A stretch of 64,000 nucleotides of DNA from Pseudomonadota bacterium. GTDB lineage: Bacteria; Tectomicrobia; Entotheonellia; Entotheonellales; Entotheonellaceae. This document shows, one piece after another, positions 31,007 to 45,197 of the stretch. The translations under genes and the position numbers were made by a program. Where the stretch lies: positions 1 through 64,000 of the forward strand of contig SXND01000155.1 of NCBI GenBank assembly GCA_005777235.1, given 5' to 3'. The notes below the pieces were generated by a model. It had not been told where the DNA came from and made no database searches. It saw only the letters and a program-made list of their open reading frames with translations. The stretch's first letter is position 1; every line of letters begins with the position of its first letter.

Positions 31007-33133
31007 TTATTTGGACGTGAGCACATAAACCCCGTCCCAATCTGCGGGTGGGGGAGCCACCTGATATTCGGCGGCGCGGCGGGCATACTCTAACGCTGGA
31101 CCATCGTGCGGATCCCACTGTAAAGCCTCGGTAAAGCAGCGCTCCGCCGTGGCAAAGGCGCACTGTTTATAGGCCGCTAAACCTGCCTCAAAGGCTTTCA
31201 CTACCTGCTGTTTCTGGGCGGAAAGTTCACCCTTGCGACCGAGCAATTCATAGACCACCACGGGTTCATACTTGCCCTTCACCCGGATATGATCCACTTC
31301 GCGGGCCTCGATGGCATCCTGCGCCAGTTCATAGGTACGCGGCCCAAGGAGGATGCGCGTGTCATATTCCTTATTCGCCCCCTCCAGACGCGCAGCGAGA
31401 TTGACGCTATCGCCCATTACGGTGTACTCCAGGCGCTTTTCGGAGCCCATATTCCCGAGGACCAACTGGCCGGAGTTGATGCCAATACGCGTCGTCATGG
31501 CTGGGAAGCCTTGCGCCCGCCAGGATTCAGCCTGAGCCGCGAGCATGATCTGGCAGTCGAGCGCGGCATAACAGGCCAGCACGGCATGGTTGGGCTCGTG
31601 GTTCGGCGCACCGAACAGGGCCATAATGCCGTCCCCGAGGTATTTGTTGACGTTGCCGCGGTGCTGCATCAAATTCTCGGTCATGGCGGAGAGGTAGGTA
31701 TTTAATAAGACGACCAGGGCCTCTGGCGTCAAACCCTCAGAAATGGTCGTAAAACCAGCCACATCGGAAAAGAACACGCTGATTTCCCGCCGTTCGCCGC
31801 CGAGCTTGATGCCGTCGGGATGGCGCATGATCGCATCGACCACATCGGCGGACATATATTTGTCGAACGCCACACGCAGTTGCCGGCGTCGTTTGCCTTC
31901 GGTGAGATATTGCCCTGTGGCGGTGAGCGCATAGGTCAGGCCTAGCGCCGCGCCGGGCAGGGCCAGTTGCAGCCACAGGCCGTGCGCCTGGAAAGCATAC
32001 ACCGTGAGGGCGTAATAGCCTGCGGCCAGTGCGCCGATCAGACTTACGCCCAGGGCGTGCGGCTGCACCAGCATCAGGCTCCAGGAGGTGCCGAGGCACA
32101 GGACCACCAGCGTCAGCAGCGTCATCCAGAGCGGGGCCGGACGCAGAAAGTCGCCGTGCAGGAGATTGTCGAGCACGGTCATGTGCGTCAGCACCCCCGG
32201 CGTAAACGGCGACAGTGGGGTGACCCGCAGATCGTACGTGCCCGCTGCAGTGGCGCCAATAAAGACAATTTTATCGTGGAACGTGGCCGGCGGTAGCAGC
32301 GGGGTGCGGCCCTCTTGGCGTTCCAGAAACGATTGCAGCACCGCGCCAGCGGCATAGGAGCGGTAGGTGTCTTCGAGCCGGCCATGCCAGTTGATCACCA
32401 TCGTCCCCTGCGCGGTCAGTGGCACGGTGCGGTTGCCAAACTGCAAGACCCCAAGCTGCGGAGCCAGCCGCTCAGCACCGAGCATCGCACGCGCCACCGC
32501 CGCGGCGAGCTGGGGCTCGGTGCGCTGCTGCACCTGGGCCAGGAGGGGGAGATGACGCAGGGTGCCATCGCTATCCGGGAACAGATCGACGAAGCCCAGC
32601 CCCTGCGCCACCGCGGCCAGGCCTGGCATGGGCAGGGTCGCGGCGTGTGCCTGGGGCATGGGCACCGGCAGCATCGCGTTGCCTGGCGCATCCGGCGCCG
32701 GACTGGCGGCGGTGGACTCCAGCATGAAGGGCAGAAAGACGTTGCCAGCCGAGCGCAGCGCCGCGATGAAGGTCTGGTCAAATTCTTCGTTCTCGGTATC
32801 TGGCTCGGGAAACAAGATATCGAACACGATGGCTTTGGCTCCGGCTTCTTGGAGATACTGCACCATATAGCCATGCCGATCCCGTGGCCACGGCCAGCGG
32901 CCAAACACGCGCAAGCTTTCTTCGTCAACGGCCACGAGGACAATCTCAGGGCTGGCCTGACCTGGGTTGGCATAATGCAGAAACCGATGATCAAGCGTCG
33001 TATGCTCCAGCCGTGCGAGGAGTCCAAACCAGCCGACAGCCAGGGCCGCGAGGCACACGACACCCCCGAGCAGCGTGGCCAGGAGGAATTTTTTCAGTGC
33101 TGGAGACCAGGTGGTAACGGCCTGAAGGTGCAT
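31007..33133 (-). CDS. CHASE2-domain adenylate/guanylate cyclase
   Basis: 708 residues. One N-terminal membrane segment (FLLATLLGGVVCLAALAVGW), then an extracytoplasmic CHASE2 sensor of about 300 residues (VLVAVDEESLRVFGRWPWPR and HDKIVFIGATAAGTYDLRVT), then three membrane helices around residues 330-420, then a class III cyclase domain. Metal-binding Asp residues are in VFFSDVAGFTTIS and YLGDGIMALFG, and the purine/ribose segment is MGDSVNLAARLEGANK. A short TPR-like tail follows (AEYQ region). It makes cAMP or cGMP in response to an unknown periplasmic signal. The ATG at 33133 was chosen over upstream frames because it places the first helix correctly. Confidence 0.9.
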   Translation of the reverse strand: MHLQAVTTWSPALKKFLLATLLGGVVCLAALAVGWFGLLARLEHTTLDHRFLHYANPGQASPEIVLVAVDEESLRVFGRWPWPRDRHGYMVQYLQEAGAKAIVFDILFPEPDTENEEFDQTFIAALRSAGNVFLPFMLESTAASPAPDAPGNAMLPVPMPQAHAATLPMPGLAAVAQGLGFVDLFPDSDGTLRHLPLLAQVQQRTEPQLAAAVARAMLGAERLAPQLGVLQFGNRTVPLTAQGTMVINWHGRLEDTYRSYAAGAVLQSFLERQEGRTPLLPPATFHDKIVFIGATAAGTYDLRVTPLSPFTPGVLTHMTVLDNLLHGDFLRPAPLWMTLLTLVVLCLGTSWSLMLVQPHALGVSLIGALAAGYYALTVYAFQAHGLWLQLALPGAALGLTYALTATGQYLTEGKRRRQLRVAFDKYMSADVVDAIMRHPDGIKLGGERREISVFFSDVAGFTTISEGLTPEALVVLLNTYLSAMTENLMQHRGNVNKYLGDGIMALFGAPNHEPNHAVLACYAALDCQIMLAAQAESWRAQGFPAMTTRIGINSGQLVLGNMGSEKRLEYTVMGDSVNLAARLEGANKEYDTRILLGPRTYELAQDAIEAREVDHIRVKGKYEPVVVYELLGRKGELSAQKQQVVKAFEAGLAAYKQCAFATAERCFTEALQWDPHDGPALEYARRAAEYQVAPPPADWDGVYVLTSK

Positions 33134-33553
33134 CACTCGGACGCCTTTGCTGCAAGTGCGCTGGCAGCGTAATTTGACACTGCTGATCCTATTGCCTGAA
33201 CGCCAAGTGGGCGACTGAGTATAGGCCATGCCTCCGGTATATTCCAGCGGCTGGACCGTATCCGCACGGCTCAGTGAGCTGCCGAGCGCCGTCACCACTT
33301 CCCTCGTAAGCTCCTTGGCAAATCCTGCGCATTTCCTCATGGTTTCCCCAAGTATTGTCTAGAGGTAGAGTTCTATAGTCTTGCCATGCATGGTGTGTTG
33401 GTGGCAACACGAAAAGAGGAGCGAATGCGTGGTGTGCCTCCTGATGAGCCCTCGCGGGCAATGTCTGGGCACAACATGTCCAATTTATAACACGACAGAC
33501 CAGAGCTTTTCTGGAGTTCTGCAACGCTCACCCTCACTTATTGGAGAATAGTC
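33134..33553. other. Divergent intergenic region, cyclase unit and TauE gene
   Basis: 420 bases between the divergent starts at 33133 and 33554. It must hold promoters for both directions, but I see no clear consensus pair; a TATAAC-like box near 33486 is the best candidate for the + strand. Upstream in-frame extensions of the cyclase cover part of the region but lack family residues. Confidence 0.4.
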
Positions 33554-34507
33554 GTGAATAGTTCTGTACTCGATTTGCCTTATGCTCCTGCGCTCAGAGA
33601 AGAGGTGAAGGAGACCGCTGCCCCGTGGAGCACACCACAGATACTCTCTGCAGCAGTAGGTTTTACATGGTTTGTACTTATAGGTCTTGGTGTGTTGTTG
33701 ATAGGACGTCTGTTCCTTATGCAGCCCTGGGCGGAAGGCTTCGCAGTGTTAGGGACGACCCTGGCCAGTACGATGTTTTGGAGTGCCGTGCTGGTGGAGG
33801 TCCTGGCGCAGTCGGTCGATGGTGCCCTGGGGATGGCGTACGGAGTCACCGCCACAACGTTCCTGCTGGGGGCTGGGATCCATCCGGTCATGGCAAGTGC
33901 CGGGGTGCATATTGCCAAGATCTTTACCGGCGGTGTTTCGGGCCTGGCGCACGTACGTTATGGGAACGTGGACAAGGCCTTATTCATGCGTTTGCTGGTG
34001 CCGGGCATGTTGGGGGGCGTGGTGGGGACCGTGGTGGTGACGCGCTTCGATGGTCGCATCCTCACCCCGTTCATTTCCGGTTACTTAGTCCTCATGGGGT
34101 TGCATATCCTCAGGAAAGCGGGGGGTTACCAGCAGTTGCGTGTGCAGCCTTCCACACATGTAGCACGGCTCGGCTTGTGTGGTGGTTTCGTGGATGCTGT
34201 CGGTGGAGGGGGTTGGGGACCGGTGGTGACCACGACGCTCCTGGGGTCGGGCAATAATCCACGCCTGACGGTCGGCTCGGTCAATTTCGCTGAGTTTTTT
34301 GTGGCGCTGGCGAGCGCGGCCTCCTTCTCCATGCTGGTGGAGACAAATATCTGGCCCATCGTTGGCAGTCTGGTGTGCGGCGGGTTGGTGGCCTCGCCCT
34401 TCGCCGCCATGATGTGCAAGCATCTCCACCCGCGGGTGCTTATGCTACTGGTGGGAGGGTTGATCACCCTGCTGAGTCTCTATAATCTGTACCGCGCTTT
34501 GGCCTAG
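33554..34507 (+). CDS. TauE/SafE-family membrane transporter
   Basis: 317 residues with about eight membrane segments in two related halves. Family motifs are SVDGALGMAYGVTATTFLL in the first half and GGFVDAVGGGGWGPVVTTTL in the second, which are inverted-repeat counterparts. TauE/SafE proteins export sulfite, sulfoacetate or other small organosulfur anions across the inner membrane; the substrate here is unknown. The start is the GTG at 33554 with GGAGAA eight bases upstream. Only a palindromic repeat separates its end from the convergent molybdoenzyme gene. The 50-residue N-terminal extension is mostly one extra helix. Confidence 0.88.
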   Translation: MNSSVLDLPYAPALREEVKETAAPWSTPQILSAAVGFTWFVLIGLGVLLIGRLFLMQPWAEGFAVLGTTLASTMFWSAVLVEVLAQSVDGALGMAYGVTATTFLLGAGIHPVMASAGVHIAKIFTGGVSGLAHVRYGNVDKALFMRLLVPGMLGGVVGTVVVTRFDGRILTPFISGYLVLMGLHILRKAGGYQQLRVQPSTHVARLGLCGGFVDAVGGGGWGPVVTTTLLGSGNNPRLTVGSVNFAEFFVALASAASFSMLVETNIWPIVGSLVCGGLVASPFAAMMCKHLHPRVLMLLVGGLITLLSLYNLYRALA

Positions 34508-34660: not shown

Positions 34661-37600
34661 CTAGACGTCAGAGGCGTGGTCAAAGGCCGCCGTGCCGGAC
34701 AACTCGCGGGACCGGAGGTGGAGCCGATGTTCCACGCGGTACACGCCAGGGATACTCAGGAGCGGCGGTTTCACCAGGGTTTCGACGGTGAGCATGGAGG
34801 CCGGACAGTTCGTGCAACTGCCGGCAAAGCGTACCGTGACCTGGCCCGTGGTGTCATCAAAGCTTACCAGCTCCAGCTTGCCGCCATCGTTGTAGATGAC
34901 GGGCGCGATAAAGCGCTCGATGACCTCCTGGACCTTCTGCCCGGGAGACAACGACGCGTTGCCTACCAGCTCGGCAAACGTCTGCGAGCTGTAGGCGTCG
35001 TCCAAGAGCGGCAGAGGCGCCAGCGCCGGAGAGGCCTGCAGCAGACGTTGGATCAAATCAGCATCCTGCGTCGCGTCGAGGACTTCCAGATCCACGAGCC
35101 CCTGGACGAGCGCCGGCGAGAGCTGCGAGCGTTCCAGATACTGACAGAATGCCTCACGTCCTGCCGGGACGAACGCGAGCTTAGCGGCGAACTCCTCCCA
35201 GGGAAACGACACGGGACCGATAACGCGGAAATTGTCCTCACCCGTGCGCACAAAATGCACCATCAATTCAGGCAAGCGATCAAAGAAGCGGCGATGCTCA
35301 TCGCGTTCCGCCGTGCGCTTGTTCATGATCACCTTGGAGCGCAGCCGCAACAGCTCGCGGTCTTTGGGCAGCACGCCGGTGGCAATGTCGATCTTGACGG
35401 CGCGTTGCTGCCGCCGATCCACCACCACCAGGGCATAGCCCCCAATCACATGGCAGTGCACCAGACGGCTAGTCTCCAGGTCGGCAGGGGAAATACCCAT
35501 AAAGTACGCCGGCACATCCGAGGCGCACGGAATGCGGATGCCGGAGATCAGCGCCACATCCTCGCGTGGGATCGGGCCGCCAGCCCCATAGAGGAGTTCT
35601 AAAGCGTGCTTGATGGCGACAAAAATCTGCACCGCCACTACCTCTTCCTTGATTTCGATCACGGCATGTTGATGCGCATCGTGCAGGTTGGCCACCTCCA
35701 CCCGCCCTGAGGCCTCGTGCAACGGCAGCCCGCCCAGGACGTGCGACAGAATTGACAGCAGCAGCGTCTCGTAGTCGAGGAGGCGCAACAGTGGCAACAA
35801 GATCGTCAGGAAGCTATCCCGGACCGCACGTGGCAGGCCTTGGAACATGGCGGCGGCCAACGCGCGGTAGTCGGCATCCTCGGCAAAGCGCTGCAAGAAC
35901 GTGGCGCCGGCCCCGAGCGCTTGGGCCAGTTGCTGTTCCACAACCCCGACAGGCGTGCGCAACGTGGCGCGTGGGAACCACTCGGGGGCATCCGGCTCGC
36001 CACGGGCAAAACGATCGGCGTCCTCGTCGGTGGGATAAACGCTGCGATACCTGGCGCTCAGAAGCGCGATGACCTCAGCGAAAGCCTGCGGCTCGGGCTG
36101 CTGCCACAAGACCTGTTCATCAGGGCTCAGCGGCTCGATACGGACCGGGGTGCGCTTGATCAGGCTCTGGTTGGTAAAGCGGTCGGCATCGAGGTAATCG
36201 GTCAGACGGTTGGCCTCGCCCGGCACGAAATCGAGAAAGGGAAACTCGACCGGCACGTGCGCGTTCAGGCTCACGCAGCCGATCACCGTGCCGTGGTGGC
36301 TGGTGATGCGCACCGGGTCGCCCGCCTGCAAGCCGGCGCCGGCGGCGTAGGTGGGATGCAGTTCAATCCAGTAGGTGTGCGCTGCCGGGGCGGTGATGGG
36401 TAGGGTCTTGATGCCGGAGTTATAGCGTGCCACGTAGCGTTTGGCGTTGTGCCCAGGGCGGCCACGTCCGGTGATCAGGCTGCGCAGCTTGTCATCGCCA
36501 CGGGTCACCAGGTGGGCGAGGAAGCTGTCCGGGGGGCGGACGAGGCGAGCCCGGCCCCGCTCCCCATGGCGCAGGCGTGGGAACACGGCGCCCTGCGTGC
36601 GCGCCGCGGCATAGCGCCCATCGCCTTGCCATTGCACCCCGAGTCCGGCCCGCGCCTGTAACATGGCGTGTGAGATGGGCTGCCCCTCGGCATCGACCAA
36701 CTGGTTGTAAACGCCCAACTGCTGCGACACGGCCACCACGTGATCGAAGACCTGAGCCGCATCGACGTGGCCCGCGGCGTCGACGTAGCGCCCAAACGTG
36801 CGCTGAATGACCGCGGCATCCAGGTTGTTGAGCGCCGCGGTATCGGGATCGTGCAGGCGGGCGGCAATAGCCAGGGCCAGGCGGGCCAGAATTTGCTCGT
36901 CGGACCAGGCCATGGGCGGGGGTGGGCTGAGGGCCTGTTGCAGTTGCAAGGTCCGATCGCCGCGCTGGATCACGCCAGTGCGTTCGGTATAGCTCAAGGC
37001 CGGCAACAGCACGTCGGCATATTCCATGGCGCCTTCTGGGAGAAACGAGTCGATCACAATACAAAAACTGCGCCCCAGGCGCGTCAACCAATGCCCCAGA
37101 CGCGGCATGTTCTTGGTAAACTGCGTGCCCATAAAGATGAAGCCGTAGAGATAATCATCATCGGCCATGCGCGACACCGGCGTGCCGTGGTGATCAGGGA
37201 TGTTGGGCTCGGGGATGTCGAGAATCTGCGCCAGTTCACGGCGATGCTCAGGGTTGGTCGGGTCAAGGTTGAACAACAGGCGCCGCGAGTTAAAACCCAA
37301 CATGAGCTCGCTGGTGGCATTGGACTGCCCGGCGATACGCAGCGAGCCGGCTCCACGGCGTCCGACGTTGCCGGTGAGCAGCAGCAAGTTGAGGTTGGTC
37401 GAGAAGCCGTAAGAACCGGTGCTCTGGTTGATGCCCATGCTGGAGACAAAGGCCGGGCGTGGGCGCTCGCCGTCGGGTCGCGGTTGGGCAATGAGGGCAG
37501 CGTAGCGCCGGATGGTCGCGGCCAGGGCTGCCGGGTCGTCGCCTTCCAAAGCGATCTGCGCCGCCACGGCTTCTGGGGTGCAGCGCTCTTGCCGGCAGAG

Positions 37601-38551
37601 ATCCCGCAGCTCGTGGAGGCTGGCTGGCTCCACCGCCTGCGCCAGATAGTCACGATCCTCCCAGCCGTGCTCCAGGATCAGCCGCGCTACGGCCAGGTTA
37701 AACAGCACGTCACCACCTTGCGCGAAGCGAATGTGCAGGGTGCGCGGGTCGGTGCGCAGGAGATCGAGCGCCGTATCGCTCTCGATAGGGTCAATCACCA
37801 CCTTGACGGCGGCGGTATTGCGCTTGAGCTTGGCGTAGGCCTGGGGAAACGTCACCAGCGGGTTGGTGCCGTGTAGCACCGCCACATCACACAGGGCCAG
37901 TTCCTCAAATTCCTGCCAGGTGAAGGCGGCTTCGTTGCCGAAATTGAGTTCATGGGCCGCCCCGGCGCTCGATAGACAATGCTCCGAGTTGGCCCCCATG
38001 GTGGCGATGCGAAAGACCAACTTGTAGAGCGAAGCCATCCAGATGGCTTCAATGGTCTGCTGCCCATTGCCATAAATCGCCACGCCCTCGGGTCCGACCC
38101 ATTCCCGAATATGCAGCAAGAGCCAGGCGGCGCGGTCTAGGGCGCGCTCCCACGATACCTCGGTCCAGCGTCCGTCGTGGCCACGGATCATGGGGGCGCG
38201 GATGCGGTCGTCGGGCCGGGCGCGGTGCTGCAGTTTGGCCACACGTTGCTGGTTGCCGCCGGTCAGCAGGGAGGTTTCGCCTTTAACGCATAAGCCCAAA
38301 TCGCTCAGTGGAATCAACGTCTCCTTACCGCTCGCCCCCTGGACCCTGGTATAGGGACAGCCCACACCACAGAAACTACAGACGGAGGCGTGGCTCACCA
38401 GGGCCATGTGGAGCTGCTGCAGCGCCGGGTCGCTCTGCAGGCCGGGGTCGGCGAGGTAGCGCCGCACAAACGTAGGCGCGCCGCCCCAGGTCGCGACATC
38501 TTGGGCCTTGGCCATGGGCAACTGGGCACACTTGCTAGAGGTCGTCTGCAT
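34661..38551 (-). CDS. Giant molybdopterin oxidoreductase fused to a C-terminal NifU-type Fe-S domain
   Basis: 1296 residues in one uninterrupted frame. Residues about 50-110 bind a [4Fe-4S] cluster through Cys58, Cys61, Cys65 and Cys88. Residues 110-750 are the molybdopterin domains of the formate dehydrogenase/NapA/NasA type; the molybdenum ligand is probably the Cys in NSEHCLSSAG, equivalent to NSRLCMSSA in nitrate reductases. A molybdopterin-binding barrel follows (THTYWIELHPTYAAG-like segment to about 840). Residues about 850-1200 are an unrecognised, mainly helical domain. Residues about 1200-1285 are a NifU C-terminal-type domain with CTNCPAS (Cys1246, Cys1249), which usually carries or transfers an iron-sulfur cluster. 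No signal peptide, so it is cytoplasmic. It follows the DevBCA-like genes by 107 bases. The substrate is unknown. Confidence 0.88.
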   Translation of the reverse strand: MQTTSSKCAQLPMAKAQDVATWGGAPTFVRRYLADPGLQSDPALQQLHMALVSHASVCSFCGVGCPYTRVQGASGKETLIPLSDLGLCVKGETSLLTGGNQQRVAKLQHRARPDDRIRAPMIRGHDGRWTEVSWERALDRAAWLLLHIREWVGPEGVAIYGNGQQTIEAIWMASLYKLVFRIATMGANSEHCLSSAGAAHELNFGNEAAFTWQEFEELALCDVAVLHGTNPLVTFPQAYAKLKRNTAAVKVVIDPIESDTALDLLRTDPRTLHIRFAQGGDVLFNLAVARLILEHGWEDRDYLAQAVEPASLHELRDLCRQERCTPEAVAAQIALEGDDPAALAATIRRYAALIAQPRPDGERPRPAFVSSMGINQSTGSYGFSTNLNLLLLTGNVGRRGAGSLRIAGQSNATSELMLGFNSRRLLFNLDPTNPEHRRELAQILDIPEPNIPDHHGTPVSRMADDDYLYGFIFMGTQFTKNMPRLGHWLTRLGRSFCIVIDSFLPEGAMEYADVLLPALSYTERTGVIQRGDRTLQLQQALSPPPPMAWSDEQILARLALAIAARLHDPDTAALNNLDAAVIQRTFGRYVDAAGHVDAAQVFDHVVAVSQQLGVYNQLVDAEGQPISHAMLQARAGLGVQWQGDGRYAAARTQGAVFPRLRHGERGRARLVRPPDSFLAHLVTRGDDKLRSLITGRGRPGHNAKRYVARYNSGIKTLPITAPAAHTYWIELHPTYAAGAGLQAGDPVRITSHHGTVIGCVSLNAHVPVEFPFLDFVPGEANRLTDYLDADRFTNQSLIKRTPVRIEPLSPDEQVLWQQPEPQAFAEVIALLSARYRSVYPTDEDADRFARGEPDAPEWFPRATLRTPVGVVEQQLAQALGAGATFLQRFAEDADYRALAAAMFQGLPRAVRDSFLTILLPLLRLLDYETLLLSILSHVLGGLPLHEASGRVEVANLHDAHQHAVIEIKEEVVAVQIFVAIKHALELLYGAGGPIPREDVALISGIRIPCASDVPAYFMGISPADLETSRLVHCHVIGGYALVVVDRRQQRAVKIDIATGVLPKDRELLRLRSKVIMNKRTAERDEHRRFFDRLPELMVHFVRTGEDNFRVIGPVSFPWEEFAAKLAFVPAGREAFCQYLERSQLSPALVQGLVDLEVLDATQDADLIQRLLQASPALAPLPLLDDAYSSQTFAELVGNASLSPGQKVQEVIERFIAPVIYNDGGKLELVSFDDTTGQVTVRFAGSCTNCPASMLTVETLVKPPLLSIPGVYRVEHRLHLRSRELSGTAAFDHASDV

Positions 38552-38658: not shown

Positions 38659-39756
38659 CTATTGGCGGTGGAACACGGCCTTGGTGAGCTGCGTCTTGAA
38701 CGTCTCACTCAAATTGAGGGCCATCTCAAAATTGCCTTTATCTAACACATAGAGTTGCACCTCCTCTTGCGCCCGCACCGTCGCATTGCGCGGCTGGCCG
38801 GTGAGCAGCGCCGCTTCGCCAAAGAAGCCGCCGCTGGTCAGCGTGGCGACACGGTGTGGTGCGGTCCGATCATCCACGACGACGTCTACCGTGCCCTGTT
38901 TGATCAGGTAGAATTTATCGCCGGCCTCTCCCTGGCGGATAATCTCCGTACCAACGGCGTAGCGCTCCTGCGTCATCGTGTCGGCAATGCGCGTCAGCGT
39001 ACTCAAATCCAAATGAGCAAAGGTCGGACACTGCATGAGAAAGGCGCAGGTGGTGACCGACTCCTGCACTGCCACGTTCGAGACGATTTGGCCATCGACC
39101 ATATTCACGAGGCGGTCCGCGACATCCAAAATGCGGTTGTCATGCGTGACGATGAGCACCGTGGTGCGGTGCGCATGGGCCAGTTCCTGGAACAGTGTCA
39201 CCACCTGCTGCCCGGCGTCTTTATCCAGGGCCGCGGTGGGCTCGTCGGCGAGAATGAGCGGCGGCTCATGCACCAAAGCGCGCGCACTCGCCACGCGCTG
39301 CCGTTGCCCGCCCGACAGGGCCTGCGGTTTATAGTGCAGACGATGCCCCAACCCGAGGCGTGTCAGCATGTCGGTCACCCGCGGCGCTTTATCGGGCCAC
39401 TTGTGGGGTTGTAGTTCCAGGGCCAGCATGACGTTTTGATAGGCGGTGAGGGAGGCAAACAGGTTGTGGGCTTGAAAAATGAAGCCGATATGACGCCGGA
39501 CTGCCACACGTGCCTTGTGGCTCAGGCCGCGCAGCTCACGACCGTTGATCTGCACACTGCCTTCTTGCACCGAGCGTAAGGCCCCGATCAGGGTCAACAG
39601 CGTGGTTTTGCCAGACCCGGATGGCCCGGTCATGATGACGATCTCGCCGGGCATCAAGTCGAGGGTATTCTCAAACAACACCTGATGGCGCAGCGCTCCC
39701 ACGCCAAAACCATGCTGCAAGTGGCGGATACGCACCGTGGGTTCGCTCGTCTCCAT
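38659..39756 (-). CDS. DevA-like ABC exporter ATPase fused to a cyclic-nucleotide-binding domain
   Basis: 365 residues. Residues 1-225 are a MacB/LolD/DevA-type ATPase: Walker A TGPSGSGKTTLL (about 44-55), the signature LSGGQRQRV, and Walker B LILADEPTAALD. Residues about 245-365 form a Crp-like cNMP-binding domain whose phosphate-binding cassette is intact (GGFFGEAALLTGQPRNATVR). Usual DevA proteins end at about 240 residues, so the C-terminal domain is an addition. It may gate export by cAMP or cGMP, which is inference. The ATG at 39756 shares one base with the stop of the preceding permease gene (TGATG), and GAGGGAT lies upstream. Confidence 0.9.
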   Translation of the reverse strand: METSEPTVRIRHLQHGFGVGALRHQVLFENTLDLMPGEIVIMTGPSGSGKTTLLTLIGALRSVQEGSVQINGRELRGLSHKARVAVRRHIGFIFQAHNLFASLTAYQNVMLALELQPHKWPDKAPRVTDMLTRLGLGHRLHYKPQALSGGQRQRVASARALVHEPPLILADEPTAALDKDAGQQVVTLFQELAHAHRTTVLIVTHDNRILDVADRLVNMVDGQIVSNVAVQESVTTCAFLMQCPTFAHLDLSTLTRIADTMTQERYAVGTEIIRQGEAGDKFYLIKQGTVDVVVDDRTAPHRVATLTSGGFFGEAALLTGQPRNATVRAQEEVQLYVLDKGNFEMALNLSETFKTQLTKAVFHRQ

Positions 39757-40922
39757 CACGAAAATCCCTCAGCAGGATCGGCAGACAACACTTTGCGCAC
39801 GGCCAGACTGCCAGCGCCGAGACACATCACCACAGTGAGCCCAAATACTACCAGCACCCGTGGGAGGCTCAGGAAGAGTAACAAACCAGTCCACTGCGCC
39901 AGCAGGTCGTAACACCCCACTGCCAGCAGCAGGCCCGGCACAAAGCCCAGACAGGCCAGGTACCAGGCTTGCAGCAGCACCAGGCGCAGCAGAACGCTAT
40001 TATGATAACCGATGGCCTTCAATGTGGCAAATTGTGGCAGATGATCCACCACGTCCGTATAGAGAATCTGATAACAGATAATCACCCCGATGGCAAACCC
40101 CATCACCGCGCCGAGGCCGAAGACCACCCCGATCGGCGTACTCTGCTGCCAGTAATGCCGCTCACGCGCAAAGAACTCGGCTTTCGTGTACAGCGCCACA
40201 TCCGTCGGCAAAGCCTGCCGCAAGGCCGCCAACACGGTGGCGACGTCGGCCTGCGGCGCTACCTGCACGACCCCCAGTTCCACCTGGCTCAGGCGGTCTA
40301 TCGGCCCCCCTGGCGCTGAAAAATACGTCAGGAAGGTGCGATCGCTCATCAGCACCGTGCCATCGTTGGAAAAATCCGTGCCCAGGCGAAACGTGCCGAG
40401 CACCCGAATCGCCCGACCTGCTAACTCAGTGACCAGGCCAGCCTCGCGCTTGCCAAAGGCGGCCTTGGATTGGCGGTCAATGAGCGCCGTGTCGGGCCGG
40501 CGCAGCGCGGCGCTTTGGGCACGAATTTCGGGATTGACGAACACTGGCGCTTCCGGGGGAAAGGCAATGACGCGGATTTGACGCCGCGTGTACGTCTCGG
40601 CATTGCGCCACCAGGCTCGCTCATCCTCGATATACACAGGATACGCCGCCTGCACCCCAGGCACGGCCAGCGCCTGCGTCACCCGGCGTCTGGCAAACGG
40701 CTCATTGTAGCTCAGCGTATGCTTCAGGGCGTTGGTGATGATGACGTCAGCCTGCAGTTGGCGGATCAGCTCCACCTGACTGTCATACAAGCCGTTGAGG
40801 AAGCCGACCTCCATAAACATCAGAAACACTGCAAAGGCAATGCCCGCCACCGAGGTCAGGAGACGCCGCGTATCGTGGGTCAGATTCTGGCGCGCTAAGG
40901 GCACCTTGCGGTGATACCACAT
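39756..40922 (-). CDS. DevC/MacB-type ABC permease, second copy
   Basis: 388 residues. One N-terminal membrane helix (LLTSVAGIAFAVFLMFMEVG), a large periplasmic domain of about 220 residues, then three C-terminal helices (FGLGAVMGFAIGVIICYQIL and following). The segment YTDVVDHLPQFATLKAIGYH is the DevC/FtsX coupling hallmark. It ends in VRKVLSADPAEGFS. DevC permeases work with DevA and the fusion protein DevB to export glycolipids or other substrates through a TolC channel. The ATG at 40922 is two bases after the TAA of the first permease gene. Its partner is a diverged paralogue, so the exporter may have a heterodimeric core. Confidence 0.9.
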   Translation of the reverse strand: MWYHRKVPLARQNLTHDTRRLLTSVAGIAFAVFLMFMEVGFLNGLYDSQVELIRQLQADVIITNALKHTLSYNEPFARRRVTQALAVPGVQAAYPVYIEDERAWWRNAETYTRRQIRVIAFPPEAPVFVNPEIRAQSAALRRPDTALIDRQSKAAFGKREAGLVTELAGRAIRVLGTFRLGTDFSNDGTVLMSDRTFLTYFSAPGGPIDRLSQVELGVVQVAPQADVATVLAALRQALPTDVALYTKAEFFARERHYWQQSTPIGVVFGLGAVMGFAIGVIICYQILYTDVVDHLPQFATLKAIGYHNSVLLRLVLLQAWYLACLGFVPGLLLAVGCYDLLAQWTGLLLFLSLPRVLVVFGLTVVMCLGAGSLAVRKVLSADPAEGFS

Positions 40923-40924
40923 GG

Positions 40925-42058
40925 TTACCACAGCTCCGCCGGATCGGCCCGGTGCACTTTGCGCACCGCCACCAGGGCCGAGAGGGCACACATCAGCACC
41001 GTCAACGCCAGGACCGTCACCAGACGCGCCAGCGTCATGTGAATGGGGAAATAGGCGGTGTGACGAATCACCGCGTAGACGCCAAAGGCCAGGCCCAGGG
41101 CAGGGGGAAAGCCCATAACGGCTAGACACAGCGCCTGGGACAGCACCACAGCCGAGAGAAACGTGTTGCGATAGCCCAGGGCTTTGAGGGTGGCATATTC
41201 CACCAGATGATTGGCAATGTCCGTGGCCAGGACTTGATAGATCACCACAGCACCCACCAGGAAGGCCAGCAAGGAGCCCGTGCCAAAGATGATGCCCGTG
41301 GAGGTGGCTTCGACCCAGTAGCGCTGCTCGACGTGGGCCAGCGCCGCACGGGTGAGCGGTAGCACATCAGGCGGCAGCGCCTGCCGCAGATGCTGCGCCA
41401 TCAGGTCTGGGTCAACGCCGGAGGCCACTTTCACCAGACCCAGGTGCACGTTGGCCAGATCATGGCCGGGGAGGATGCGGGCAAAGTTTTGCGCGCTGAC
41501 CATGATGGAGCCAATGGCACGCAAGTCGAGTCCCAAGGTGTAATGCCCGCCAATAGTGACCGTGCGCCGTTCGACCTCGGTGACGCTGCCAACGGCCAGC
41601 GGCCCGCACTCAGGGCGTGAGCGGCTATCGATGAGCACCGTGTCCGGGGCACGCAGCACGGCCTGCTGGGCCGCTGGTTCTGGCAGCAAGAAGACCGCAT
41701 CCTCGGGGTGAAACCCTAGCATGCGCAAGCGGTAGCGCAAGCGAGTGTGGGCATTTTGCCACATGGGCAGGGCGAGGTAGAGTGGCGTGGCCCTGGCAAC
41801 TCCAGGCTGCGTGGCGGCTTGATGCAGGCGATGGCGTGGGAATGTGCCAGTGTGGTTAAGAAAGACGTAATGCGGTGACACCAGCATGATCTCAAAGTCG
41901 AGCTGATCGTAGACCAGCACCGCGGCTTGCACAATCGCCGCCAGGAGGCCAAATTGCACAAAGATCAGCAGCACGACAAACGTAATGCCAGCCGTGGCCG
42001 CGGCGGTGCGCATCCTGGTGTGCAGCAAATTGGACCACGCGAGCAACAGAGGTCTCAT
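40925..42058 (-). CDS. DevC/MacB-type ABC permease, first copy
   Basis: 377 residues with the same layout as the next gene: an N-terminal helix (TAAATAGITFVVLLIFVQFG), a large periplasmic domain, and three C-terminal helices. It carries the matching coupling segment TDIANHLVEYATLKALGYRN and the matching end VRKVHRADPAELW. The ATG at 42058 has no strong ribosome site. A 59-base palindromic repeat lies in the 165-base gap between the fusion-protein gene and this gene. Confidence 0.9.
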   Translation of the reverse strand: MRPLLLAWSNLLHTRMRTAAATAGITFVVLLIFVQFGLLAAIVQAAVLVYDQLDFEIMLVSPHYVFLNHTGTFPRHRLHQAATQPGVARATPLYLALPMWQNAHTRLRYRLRMLGFHPEDAVFLLPEPAAQQAVLRAPDTVLIDSRSRPECGPLAVGSVTEVERRTVTIGGHYTLGLDLRAIGSIMVSAQNFARILPGHDLANVHLGLVKVASGVDPDLMAQHLRQALPPDVLPLTRAALAHVEQRYWVEATSTGIIFGTGSLLAFLVGAVVIYQVLATDIANHLVEYATLKALGYRNTFLSAVVLSQALCLAVMGFPPALGLAFGVYAVIRHTAYFPIHMTLARLVTVLALTVLMCALSALVAVRKVHRADPAELW

Positions 42059-42134
42059 GGCACGTCAGTCCTTGTCAGTATCCTCTTAAGTACCTGGCCA
42101 TAAGTTTGAGCCCATGGTCGTCTGGTGGTCCTAC

Positions 42135-42193
42135 CCTGGGAGCGCGGCCATCTTGGCCGCTTCCGGAGCGGGAGAGACGCCCGCGCTCCCAGG
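42135..42193. repeat. Dispersed palindromic element, short form, copy C
   Basis: It begins CCTGGGAGCGCGG and ends CCGCGCTCCCAGG (perfect 13-base outer arms), with the inner part GGCCATCTTGGCC. It matches the element at 34537-34595 in length and ends. It lies inside the DevBCA-like operon, between the fusion-protein and permease genes. Confidence 0.85.
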
Positions 42194-42223
42194 AAAAACC
42201 AGGCAGAATTTTTGTCCAGGTAC

Positions 42224-43414
42224 TTACGGCGTGCGCGCTGGCGGAGTGCTGCCGTCGAGGTGCACCACGACCTGGAGGTTGATCAAACGCGCTGCCATGG
42301 TACTGCGATCGAGCTGGATGTTGACTTCCACGACGCGGACATCGGTGGCCGCTGCAGGGTCTACTGCCAGGACATCGTTCTTCGCCACCATGTGGCCGAT
42401 GTGCACAACGGTCCCGCTGAGCGGCTCAGGCAACGCCGGGCTGATGACCGTAGCGCGTTGGCCCAGAGACACGCGGCGCATATCGGTTTCGTAAACTTCT
42501 GCCACGGCATACATCTGCTGCGTGTGGCCCATTTTGAGGATGGGCTGGGCGCCGGTGGTCTCCCCCGGACGGACCAAGATGCGCAGGATCATACCACTGA
42601 TTGGCGCCCGCAGCACCGTGCGCTCGACACGGACCTGCGCGAGGACCAGGTTGTCCCGCAAGGAGCCGATCCGCAGGGCGGTGTGGGCGCGGGTGGCGTT
42701 GCGCTGCGCCGTACTGCGCTGCGCCCGTGCCAGGCGCAGATTCAGATCGTACGCCGCTTTCAGCTTGGCCAGGACCGCTCTAGCGTTGGTGAGCTGTTCC
42801 TGGGCTCGACGCACCAGGAGTTGCTGGTTCTCGGCGTTCTGGGGCGCCGTGATGCCTTTCTGGCGCAGCCCCTCGGTCCGTTGCCTCTCGACCTCAGCGC
42901 TGGCCAGGTCGGCCTCAAGCTGCCGCACCGTCGCTTCTTGGGCCTGGATATCTAGCGGCGGGAGGGCCTGGAGCTGCTGGACATGCAGTTCCGCCTCGGC
43001 AAGCGTCGCTTGCCAATAGGCGGCTTCCGCCGCGCCCTGCGCTTCGGCATCACGCAGCTGGCTCTCGGCGTACTGGCGTTCGGCGAGACGTTCCGTATAG
43101 CTCTCCAGGTAGGCGAGGATCGCGCCAGCTTCCACCAGCTGGTTTTCTTGCACCAATAAACGGGCCAGGCGGTCGTTACTGGCCGTACCGATAGCTACGA
43201 TGGCCCCTTCAGGTTCCAAGCGGCCCAGGGCAACCACTAATGGCTGGGGGCTCAGGGGAACACCCGGGGCTGCCGCGTCACCGGACACGCTACCTGTGTG
43301 ACCTTCTCCAGGCGGTTGGCCCCGCGTGGGCCGCGTCGAGAACACGTTGTAGGCCATCAAACCGCCGGCGGAGAGTAGCACCACGATCAGGGAAGCCAAG
43401 AGGAACCGTTGCAC
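42224..43414 (-). CDS. DevB/HlyD-type membrane fusion protein
   Basis: 396 residues. An N-terminal anchor (FLLASLIVVLLSAGGLMAYN) is followed by the first lipoyl half, a long coiled-coil hairpin at about 105-260 rich in Ala, Glu, Gln and Leu, and the second lipoyl half with RTVLRAPISGMILRILVRPG. A beta barrel follows (VAEVYETDMRRVSLGQRATV). It bridges an inner-membrane ABC exporter and an outer-membrane channel. I chose the GTG at 43414, which has AAAGGA nine bases upstream and puts the anchor at residue 2. Longer frames to 43678 overlap the ilvA start and look unlike protein. It is divergent from ilvA. Confidence 0.88.
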   Translation of the reverse strand: MQRFLLASLIVVLLSAGGLMAYNVFSTRPTRGQPPGEGHTGSVSGDAAAPGVPLSPQPLVVALGRLEPEGAIVAIGTASNDRLARLLVQENQLVEAGAILAYLESYTERLAERQYAESQLRDAEAQGAAEAAYWQATLAEAELHVQQLQALPPLDIQAQEATVRQLEADLASAEVERQRTEGLRQKGITAPQNAENQQLLVRRAQEQLTNARAVLAKLKAAYDLNLRLARAQRSTAQRNATRAHTALRIGSLRDNLVLAQVRVERTVLRAPISGMILRILVRPGETTGAQPILKMGHTQQMYAVAEVYETDMRRVSLGQRATVISPALPEPLSGTVVHIGHMVAKNDVLAVDPAAATDVRVVEVNIQLDRSTMAARLINLQVVVHLDGSTPPARTP

Positions 43415-43667
43415 GGCGGCCAATCCTTTCAGGTGTGAAACGCCTCGACGTGGCGCGGGCCGGTTTTCCACGCTGGAGCAAACGCTGTATACTGCACGAC
43501 AGAGCTGCACGCTCGTCCTTCCTGACATGGCGCACGCGGCCATGCTGGGGGAAGTGCACCGAGAGTCGTAGGAGACACAATGCGGGTGCTGGCATGTTGC
43601 GCCGTAACGCTGGCCACCTCGCTCGCCCTCTCCCATTGCGAGCAGGGACAACCCAGGAGCATCGTGT

Positions 43668-45197
43668 ATGGCGACCATCCCAATAGCACCCGAGGACTAT
43701 CTGGTCAAGATCCTCACGGCGCAGGTGTATGACGTGGTTATCGAGAGTCCGCTCGACCTCGCCCCCTTGTTGTCCCGTCGCCTCAACAACCGCGTGCGGC
43801 TCAAGCGTGAGGACATGCAGGAGGTCTTCTCCTTCAAACTGCGTGGCGCCTACAACAAAATGGTGCACCTATCACCGGAAGCCCGCACCCGGGGGGTGCT
43901 GACCGCCTCGGCTGGGAATCATGCCCAGGGTGTGGCGCTGGCGGCGCGGCAGCTGCACTGCCCAGCGCTGATTGTCATGCCCGTGACCACGCCGCGCATC
44001 AAAATTGATGCGGTGCAGCGCCGTGGGGCGCAGGTCATTCTGCACGGCGATACGTATGATGACGCCTACACCCACGCGGGGCACCTGGCTGCCGAACGGG
44101 CGCTGACGTTTGTGCATCCCTACGACGATCCCGAGGTGATTGCGGGCCAAGGCACGGTGGGCATGGAGATTGTACGCCAGTGCAGCCCGCCGCCGCAGGC
44201 GATTTTTGTGCCGGTGGGTGGTGGCGGGCTCATCGCGGGGATCGCCGCCTATGTCAAACGGTTGTATCCACACGTCAAAATCATTGGCGTGGAACCCACG
44301 GATGCCGACGCCATGACACGTTCGCTGCAGCACGGCGCCCGCGTGCGGTTGACGCAGGTGGGCCTGTTTGCCGATGGCGTGGCGGTCAAATATGTGGGTG
44401 CTGAGACGTTTCGCCTCTGCCAGGAGCTGGTGGATGACATGGTGCTGGTGGACACGGATGCCATCTGCGCCGCTATGAAAGACGTGTTTGAAGACACGCG
44501 CTCCATCCTCGAACCCGCCGGGGCGCTGCGTATCGCCGGACTCAAGGCCTATGTGGCCCGCGAAAAGCTACACGATACCACCCTGGTGGCGGTGGCCTCT
44601 GGGGCGAACATGAACTTTGACCGGCTGCGCCACGTCGCCGAACACGCCGAACTCGGCGGCGAGCGCGAGGCGGTGCTGGCCATTGTCATCCCGGAGCGCC
44701 CTGGGAGTTTTCAGGCCTTGTGCCAGCTCCTGGGGGTGCATAAGATCACGGAGTTTAACTACCGTTACGCTGACCCAGAGAAAGCGGTGGTGTTTGTCGG
44801 CGTGGAAGTGCAAAATCGCCAGGCATGCGTCGCCCTCATCGCGACCCTTCAAGCACAGGGTCTGCAAACCTCTGATTTTACAGACAACGAGATGGCCAAG
44901 CTGCACGTGCGGCACATGGTCGGAGGGCATGCCCCGCAGGCGCAGCACGAGCGCTTATACCGCTTCGAGTTCCCGGAGCGCCCTGGGGCCCTGCTCGCAT
45001 TTTTGACGCGCCTGAGCCAGACGTGGAACATCAGCCTGTTTCACTATCGTAATCATGGCACGGACCACGGGCGTGTCCTGATTGGTATCCAAGTGCCGCC
45101 GCCGGACCAGGCCGCGTTTCAGGATTTTTTAACAGGGGTGGGGTATGCGTATGATGAGGAAAGCCAGAATCCGGCTTACCGGCTGTTTCTGAGCTGA
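43668..45197 (+). CDS. ilvA: Threonine ammonia-lyase, biosynthetic (two ACT-like domains)
   Basis: 509 residues. The PLP-binding Lys is in FSFKLRGAYNKM, the asparagine loop is TASAGNHAQGVALAA, and the phosphate-binding glycines are PVGGGGLIAGIAAYV. Two C-terminal ACT-like domains (ERPGSFQALCQLLGVH-type and ERPGALLAFLTRLSQTWNIS) bind isoleucine and valine in E. coli IlvA. It deaminates threonine to 2-oxobutanoate for isoleucine synthesis. The ATG at 43668 follows CAGGAGC. No other ilv gene is near. The gene lies divergent from the DevBCA-like cluster. Confidence 0.94.
   Translation: MATIPIAPEDYLVKILTAQVYDVVIESPLDLAPLLSRRLNNRVRLKREDMQEVFSFKLRGAYNKMVHLSPEARTRGVLTASAGNHAQGVALAARQLHCPALIVMPVTTPRIKIDAVQRRGAQVILHGDTYDDAYTHAGHLAAERALTFVHPYDDPEVIAGQGTVGMEIVRQCSPPPQAIFVPVGGGGLIAGIAAYVKRLYPHVKIIGVEPTDADAMTRSLQHGARVRLTQVGLFADGVAVKYVGAETFRLCQELVDDMVLVDTDAICAAMKDVFEDTRSILEPAGALRIAGLKAYVAREKLHDTTLVAVASGANMNFDRLRHVAEHAELGGEREAVLAIVIPERPGSFQALCQLLGVHKITEFNYRYADPEKAVVFVGVEVQNRQACVALIATLQAQGLQTSDFTDNEMAKLHVRHMVGGHAPQAQHERLYRFEFPERPGALLAFLTRLSQTWNISLFHYRNHGTDHGRVLIGIQVPPPDQAAFQDFLTGVGYAYDEESQNPAYRLFLS

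Follow-up and report, generated by a model that had tools for sequence, protein, structure and literature searches.

A divergent molybdenum bis-pterin oxidoreductase and an Nfu domain in one reading frame of an Entotheonellaceae genome

The window, the whole stretch of 64,000 nucleotides of contig SXND01000155.1 that was analysed, contains on its reverse strand a gene for a single protein of 1296 residues. The N-terminal part of this protein is a molybdopterin oxidoreductase catalytic unit and its C-terminal end is an Nfu (NifU C-terminal) domain. The features of the gene and of its immediate neighbours are as follows.

34661..38551, (-) strand: whole gene, encoding the 1296-residue protein P0001 (single ATG-to-stop open reading frame, Shine-Dalgarno sequence, coding bias in all blocks)
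38276..38389, (-) strand: N-terminal [4Fe-4S] motif CX2CX3CX22C, residues 55-92 with Cys58, 61, 65 and 88 (alignment to formate dehydrogenases and Nas enzymes)
36875..38206, (-) strand: molybdopterin oxidoreductase catalytic domain, residues 116-559 (PF00384, 96.9 bits, cut-off 24)
37976..37978, (-) strand: Mo-ligand Cys192 (NSEHCLSSAG), followed by Leu (alignment with the genome's own formate dehydrogenase, L027, and Nas-type enzymes)
36155..36439, (-) strand: molybdopterin-dinucleotide-binding C-terminal domain, residues 705-799 (PF01568, Molydop_binding, 35.3 bits, cut-off 26.8)
35672..36034, (-) strand: mostly helical segment, residues ~840-960 (no Pfam or PDB match; helices in a low-confidence single-sequence model)
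35270..35611, (-) strand: possible FmdE-like alpha/beta domain, residues ~981-1094 (sub-cut-off PF02663, shuffles, alignment)
34937..35164, (-) strand: second segment before the Nfu domain, residues ~1130-1205 (no match; helical in a low-confidence model)
34763..34933, (-) strand: Nfu domain, residues 1207-1263 (PF01106, 48.2 bits, cut-off 27)
34805..34816, (-) strand: Nfu CxxC motif, Cys1246 and Cys1249 in GSCTNCPAS (alignment with other Nfu domains)
38659..43678, (-) strand: genes for an HlyD-type adaptor, two FtsX permeases and an ABC ATPase fused to a cNMP-binding domain, a DevBCA-like exporter (Pfam)
33554..34507, (+) strand: TauE/SafE-type sulfite exporter gene, convergent and a neighbour only (PF01925)

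The DevBCA-like genes lie upstream of the fusion gene in the same direction, across a gap of 107 bp, and are likewise regarded as neighbours only. The ABC ATPase of this set (38659-39759 in the window) carries its cyclic-nucleotide-binding domain at the C-terminus, and a CHASE2 adenylate/guanylate cyclase is encoded near by, at 31007-33340.

The proposal of an earlier note that one polypeptide of 1296 residues contains both a Mo-bis-pterin oxidoreductase and an Nfu domain is borne out by both the reading frame and the Pfam assignments. A strong Shine-Dalgarno sequence, CTTAAGGAGACGGCAGAT (AAGGAG), is placed 9 nt 5' of the ATG. Codon-usage log-odds, with a dozen neighbouring genes as the reference, favour the frame in 18 of 18 blocks of 72 codons, those at the domain boundaries included, and third codon positions have a GC fraction of 0.73-0.89 over the whole frame. 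The tetranucleotide make-up of the gene is that of the window. Tandem repeats are lacking, and nothing ahead of the Nfu part makes a convincing internal ribosome site. Given the coding bias in all 18 blocks, unbroken over the junctions, and the window-like tetranucleotides, nothing points to a frameshift or assembly join between ~36000 and 34900, the fault that had been feared. The observation of a real oxidoreductase-Nfu fusion in one gene is confirmed, and the reading placed on it in the note is borne out in part.

The catalytic unit belongs to the DMSO-reductase (Mo/W-bis-pterin) superfamily, as PF00384 and PF01568 both score over their cut-offs and the cluster cysteines and Cys192 align. 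Cys58, Cys61, Cys65 and Cys88, previously taken as cluster ligands, agree with the [4Fe-4S] positions of the alignment, and the molybdenum-ligand Cys that had been located in NSEHCLSSAG is the same residue as Cys192. The TGNxG and GQxN loops are kept, and substitutions occur in normally conserved loops of the catalytic domain. The description of the unit as complete holds for the Pfam domains and the cysteines, but the Pfam Fe4S4 domain model gives 11.6 bits on the 1296-residue protein, below its cut-off of 22.7, and the sequence of the unit has diverged strongly. In a maximum-likelihood tree the branch of the fusion protein measures 3.4-3.9 changes per site against a median end branch of 0.37 (~10-fold), and because of this long branch the placement of the catalytic unit is unsure. 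Judged by eye, the N-terminal sequence has no Tat or Sec signal, so the enzyme and its Nfu domain would both be cytoplasmic.

Assignment of the unit as 'NapA/FdhA-type' proved too specific, since the unit has neither the His nor the Arg of formate dehydrogenases, its pocket loops look Nas-like and every equivalog cut-off is failed widely. The best NCBIfam score is to the formate dehydrogenase alpha model, at 157.8 bits against a cut-off of 666; the NasC equivalog gives 135 bits (cut-off 1100) and the NasA equivalog 129 bits (cut-off 1000). With the same alpha model the genome's own formate dehydrogenase reaches 804 bits, over the cut-off, and its own NirB-linked Nas enzyme is likewise below the NasC cut-off. 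The fusion protein shares its superfamily, and the domain order within the catalytic part, with the formate dehydrogenase alpha subunit (FdhA/FdhF). Unlike FdhA/FdhF, which it also falls short of in score, it lacks the His directly after the Mo ligand (CL, compared with CH in all the aligned formate dehydrogenases, namely the genome's own and seven others) and the Arg of the RGQ(N/A)N loop (IAGQSN, compared with LRGQNN). The catalytic domain finds its best matches among Nas-type enzymes, at 143 bits and ~31% identity. In common with NasC, NasA and NarB it has the CX2CX3CXnC motif, a Cys Mo ligand, MGxNQS (here GVNQS) and GQxNA loops with no Arg, and a predicted cytoplasmic location. In contrast to these enzymes it has CL rather than CM after the ligand and ~460 additional C-terminal residues, including the Nfu domain, and its gene does not adjoin NirB, nitrite or nitrate genes. 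As judged by these alignments, the catalytic unit is a divergent Mo/W-bis-pterin oxidoreductase with a pocket nearer to those of nitrate reductases than to those of formate dehydrogenases.

The middle region (residues ~830-1204, ~375 residues) gives no significant match to Pfam, PDB or PHROGs. It had been described as a helical domain, which holds for ~100 residues, up to residue ~925-940; beyond this point the low-confidence models indicate that the region is probably alpha/beta. AlphaFold2, run without homologues, gives a pLDDT of 43 for the tail and a poor 34 for the middle, the Nfu part being mostly ~60-80 and the one region with meaningful fold matches, and because these models are poor no fold is claimed for the middle. 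Residues 981-1094 match the FmdE family (PF02663) with E = 0.022 when the 439-residue tail is searched and 0.0052 for a 216-residue piece. When 24 FmdE proteins make up the profile, none of 3000 shuffles reaches the real score, and a shallow five-sequence profile finds no match. Resemblance to FmdE consists of this weak profile match, a similar order of secondary structure and the retention of Cys1009 and Asp1012, which line up with conserved FmdE positions. On the other side, the middle scores 15.3-17.3 bits, under the curated family cut-off of 22.9, and the FHGHxC motif is absent from it in the FmdE alignment. Of the four metal ligands of the solved FmdE structures, three come from this motif, and the FmdE fusions described in the same 2010 structure paper are to PF00994 and PF01980, none being with a Mo-bis-pterin enzyme (PMC2954224). 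An HQH sequence at residues 960-962 could, speculatively, be a displaced remnant of FHGHxC. Taken together, the profile and alignment leave a relation of residues 981-1094 to FmdE at about even odds.

The Nfu domain is by contrast with the middle region readily recognized. A NifU C-terminal domain with CTNCPAS had been proposed here, and it is upheld by the PF01106 score, the retention of both Cys residues and a top fold match to NFU1. Alignment with other Nfu domains shows the NDGG and GxCxxC motifs to be intact. Sequence matches in the PDB are 1xhj, 2m5o and 1veh, and the top three Foldseek matches of the Nfu part are 2m5o, 1veh and 2z51 (human NFU1, mouse HIRIP5 and plant CnfU). The domain thus resembles NfuA, NFU1 and the C-terminal domain of NifU in its DGG and GxCxxCP motifs and its NFU1-like fold match; however, the usual Nfu carriers have frames of ~75-400 residues and here the domain is one end of a 1296-residue enzyme. 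The ~33 residues that follow it contain no cysteines, and a Rieske or rubredoxin-like C-terminal motif of the HucE/HhyE type is absent. Clusters held by Nfu domains are typically labile and transferable.

No second example of the architecture was found. It is absent from the literature searched, in keeping with the original statement that no described enzyme of this domain order was known to the author, and from genomes of the same family. A search of 1,080 genomes from other phyla gave no homologue of the whole protein, and one of 386 genomes spread over bacteria gave none of the linker, so that ~1,460 genomes were covered in all. At the threshold used, full-length searches in relatives and other phyla return matches to the catalytic part only, in frames of ~710-840 residues. 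Plasmids give matches to the catalytic part alone, all with less than 80% of the query covered, and none to the linker; linker homologues are absent from phages and fusion homologues from viral contigs. A scan of GTDB contigs, the reach of which is close relatives only, matched the tail to ordinary NifU/Nfu proteins alone, and two weak linker matches in other genomes were discarded as antisense to unrelated genes. In a set of 116 genomes, which hold ~100 Nfu domains, the 1296-residue frame is by far the longest to contain such a domain. Second in length among the intact fusions is a Cys/Met-metabolism enzyme of 573 residues with Nfu repeats; this is a cystathionine gamma-synthase-type PLP enzyme with C-terminal Nfu domains from the same bacterial family (L025:5349-7070, genome G002), and a similar frame of 618 residues occurs in genome G003 (L087). 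An 856-residue rhodanese-like/Nfu/cyclase frame (L084, genome G084) was rejected as a second large fusion, since a stretch of unknown bases (X in the translation) breaks it. As no other searched genome has the architecture, the carrier-fused protein is referred to as an unusual single-genome enzyme among the genomes searched.

The source metagenome-assembled genome (MAG) comprises 284 contigs and is 89.7% complete and 6.7% contaminated. The threonine dehydratase adjoining the fusion shares 74% identity with its counterpart in a genome of the same family (next best 57%), which indicates that the contig is native to the lineage. The genes around the fusion show no synteny with the nearest relative. 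None of those adjoining it encodes a ferredoxin, flavoprotein, cytochrome or Rieske protein. Elsewhere the genome encodes a separate A-type/Nfu protein (NfuA; L085), as well as a canonical Nas-type enzyme and a formate dehydrogenase which have the same [4Fe-4S] motif and no fused Nfu domain. The gene of the Nas-type enzyme has ferredoxin, Rieske and NirB genes around it, and the formate dehydrogenase carries extra Fe-S domains. In the former cluster NirB and NirD are themselves fused in a protein of 1004 residues (L026:1013-4027), beside the Nas-type nitrate reductase and the ferredoxin-type and Rieske-type genes.

The presence of a recipient-type [4Fe-4S] motif and an Nfu domain in one chain suggests a cytoplasmic Mo (or W) bis-pterin oxidoreductase with its own dedicated Nfu domain, which would load or repair the cluster of the enzyme to which it is attached. 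We prefer this explanation tentatively, at somewhat less than an even chance. Two chains of the fusion protein would associate, and their C-terminal Nfu domains would hold a transient [4Fe-4S] cluster between the two CxxC motifs. The tether could then bring the Nfu domains to the N-terminal site of Cys58, 61, 65 and 88, where they would load the [4Fe-4S] cluster, or reload it, for example after oxidative damage. The ~375-residue middle may serve as a spacer and as a docking or dimer module. Cluster binding and delivery in cis we infer from these modules, as we would any substrate and partners. If the domain is a carrier, it probably serves its own fused enzyme alone.

A precedent is found in Pseudomonas aeruginosa, where loss of nfuA removes ~90% of nitrate reductase activity (2.9 compared with 35 U/mg); both CxxC cysteines of the NfuA Nfu domain are needed for nitrate reductase, and aconitase and succinate dehydrogenase are unaffected, although direct delivery from NfuA to nitrate reductase is unproven according to the authors (PMC6084964). 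An Nfu carrier can therefore be dedicated to a Mo enzyme of the same superfamily. The Nas-like rather than formate dehydrogenase-like pocket of the fusion protein also favours the carrier reading. Several points stand against a dedicated carrier in the present protein. The searches gave no homologue that would show the fusion to be conserved; ordinary cluster supply should need no tether, as the genome has a separate A-type/Nfu protein and its Nas-type enzyme and formate dehydrogenase do without an attached Nfu domain; and the catalytic unit is so divergent in sequence that its activity is predicted only.

Mo enzymes of this type normally have a separate electron-transfer subunit, and the Nfu domain might replace it, an inter-chain Nfu-type cluster carrying electrons from an external donor to the N-terminal [4Fe-4S] cluster, or from the latter to an external acceptor. 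The lack of an adjoining electron-transfer gene, compared with the genome's own Nas-type enzyme and formate dehydrogenase, is consistent with such a relay. So is the example of HucE and HhyE, Nfu-domain proteins with Rieske or rubredoxin-like ends that are essential for two mycobacterial hydrogenases and have been proposed as electron carriers (PMC6883350). A HucE-like Nfu-Rieske protein is likewise encoded directly downstream of the large subunit of a NiFe-hydrogenase in genome G112 (L086:682-1893 and 1897-2985). HucE and HhyE resemble the fusion in that an Nfu domain is tied to a single redox metalloenzyme; however, they are encoded by separate genes, their partner is a hydrogenase and not a Mo enzyme, and they have the C-terminal Rieske or rubredoxin-like motif that the fusion protein lacks. 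For HucE itself the authors also allow a function in maturation (PMC6883350). A relay, for which the labile and transferable nature of Nfu clusters is also unfavourable, is somewhat the less likely of the two readings, and the carrier is preferred to it because of the usual chemistry of the Nfu family and the P. aeruginosa result. Less probable still is a loss of enzyme function in the catalytic unit, or its use in structure or regulation, as in NuoG-like or QrcB-like relatives, the tail then being a scaffold. The very long branch, the scores far under every equivalog cut-off and the substituted loops would fit such a loss, but all four cluster cysteines and Cys192 are retained, as are the TGNxG and GQxN loops and the dinucleotide-binding domain. 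Finally, an assembly or annotation artefact, in which the fusion exists in the MAG contig alone, is very improbable. The number of contigs, the contamination, the want of a second copy and the absent synteny speak for it, yet the coding signal is unbroken at all junctions, the composition matches, no tandem repeats or convincing internal ribosome site are seen, the threonine dehydratase marks the contig as native, and joining known genes leaves 375 residues without any relative unexplained.

For the question of how Nfu-type carriers select their clients, the fusion represents a natural experiment in which the identity of the client is fixed. The role of the Nfu cysteines in loading, repair or electron transfer is directly addressable in one protein. 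A broader form of the proposal, which we consider doubtful, is that the protein represents a new class of Mo oxidoreductase in which a carrier in cis would rebuild or wire its own cluster without a separate protein, with an FmdE-like module in between. If this were true, no separate maturation or electron-transfer protein would be needed.
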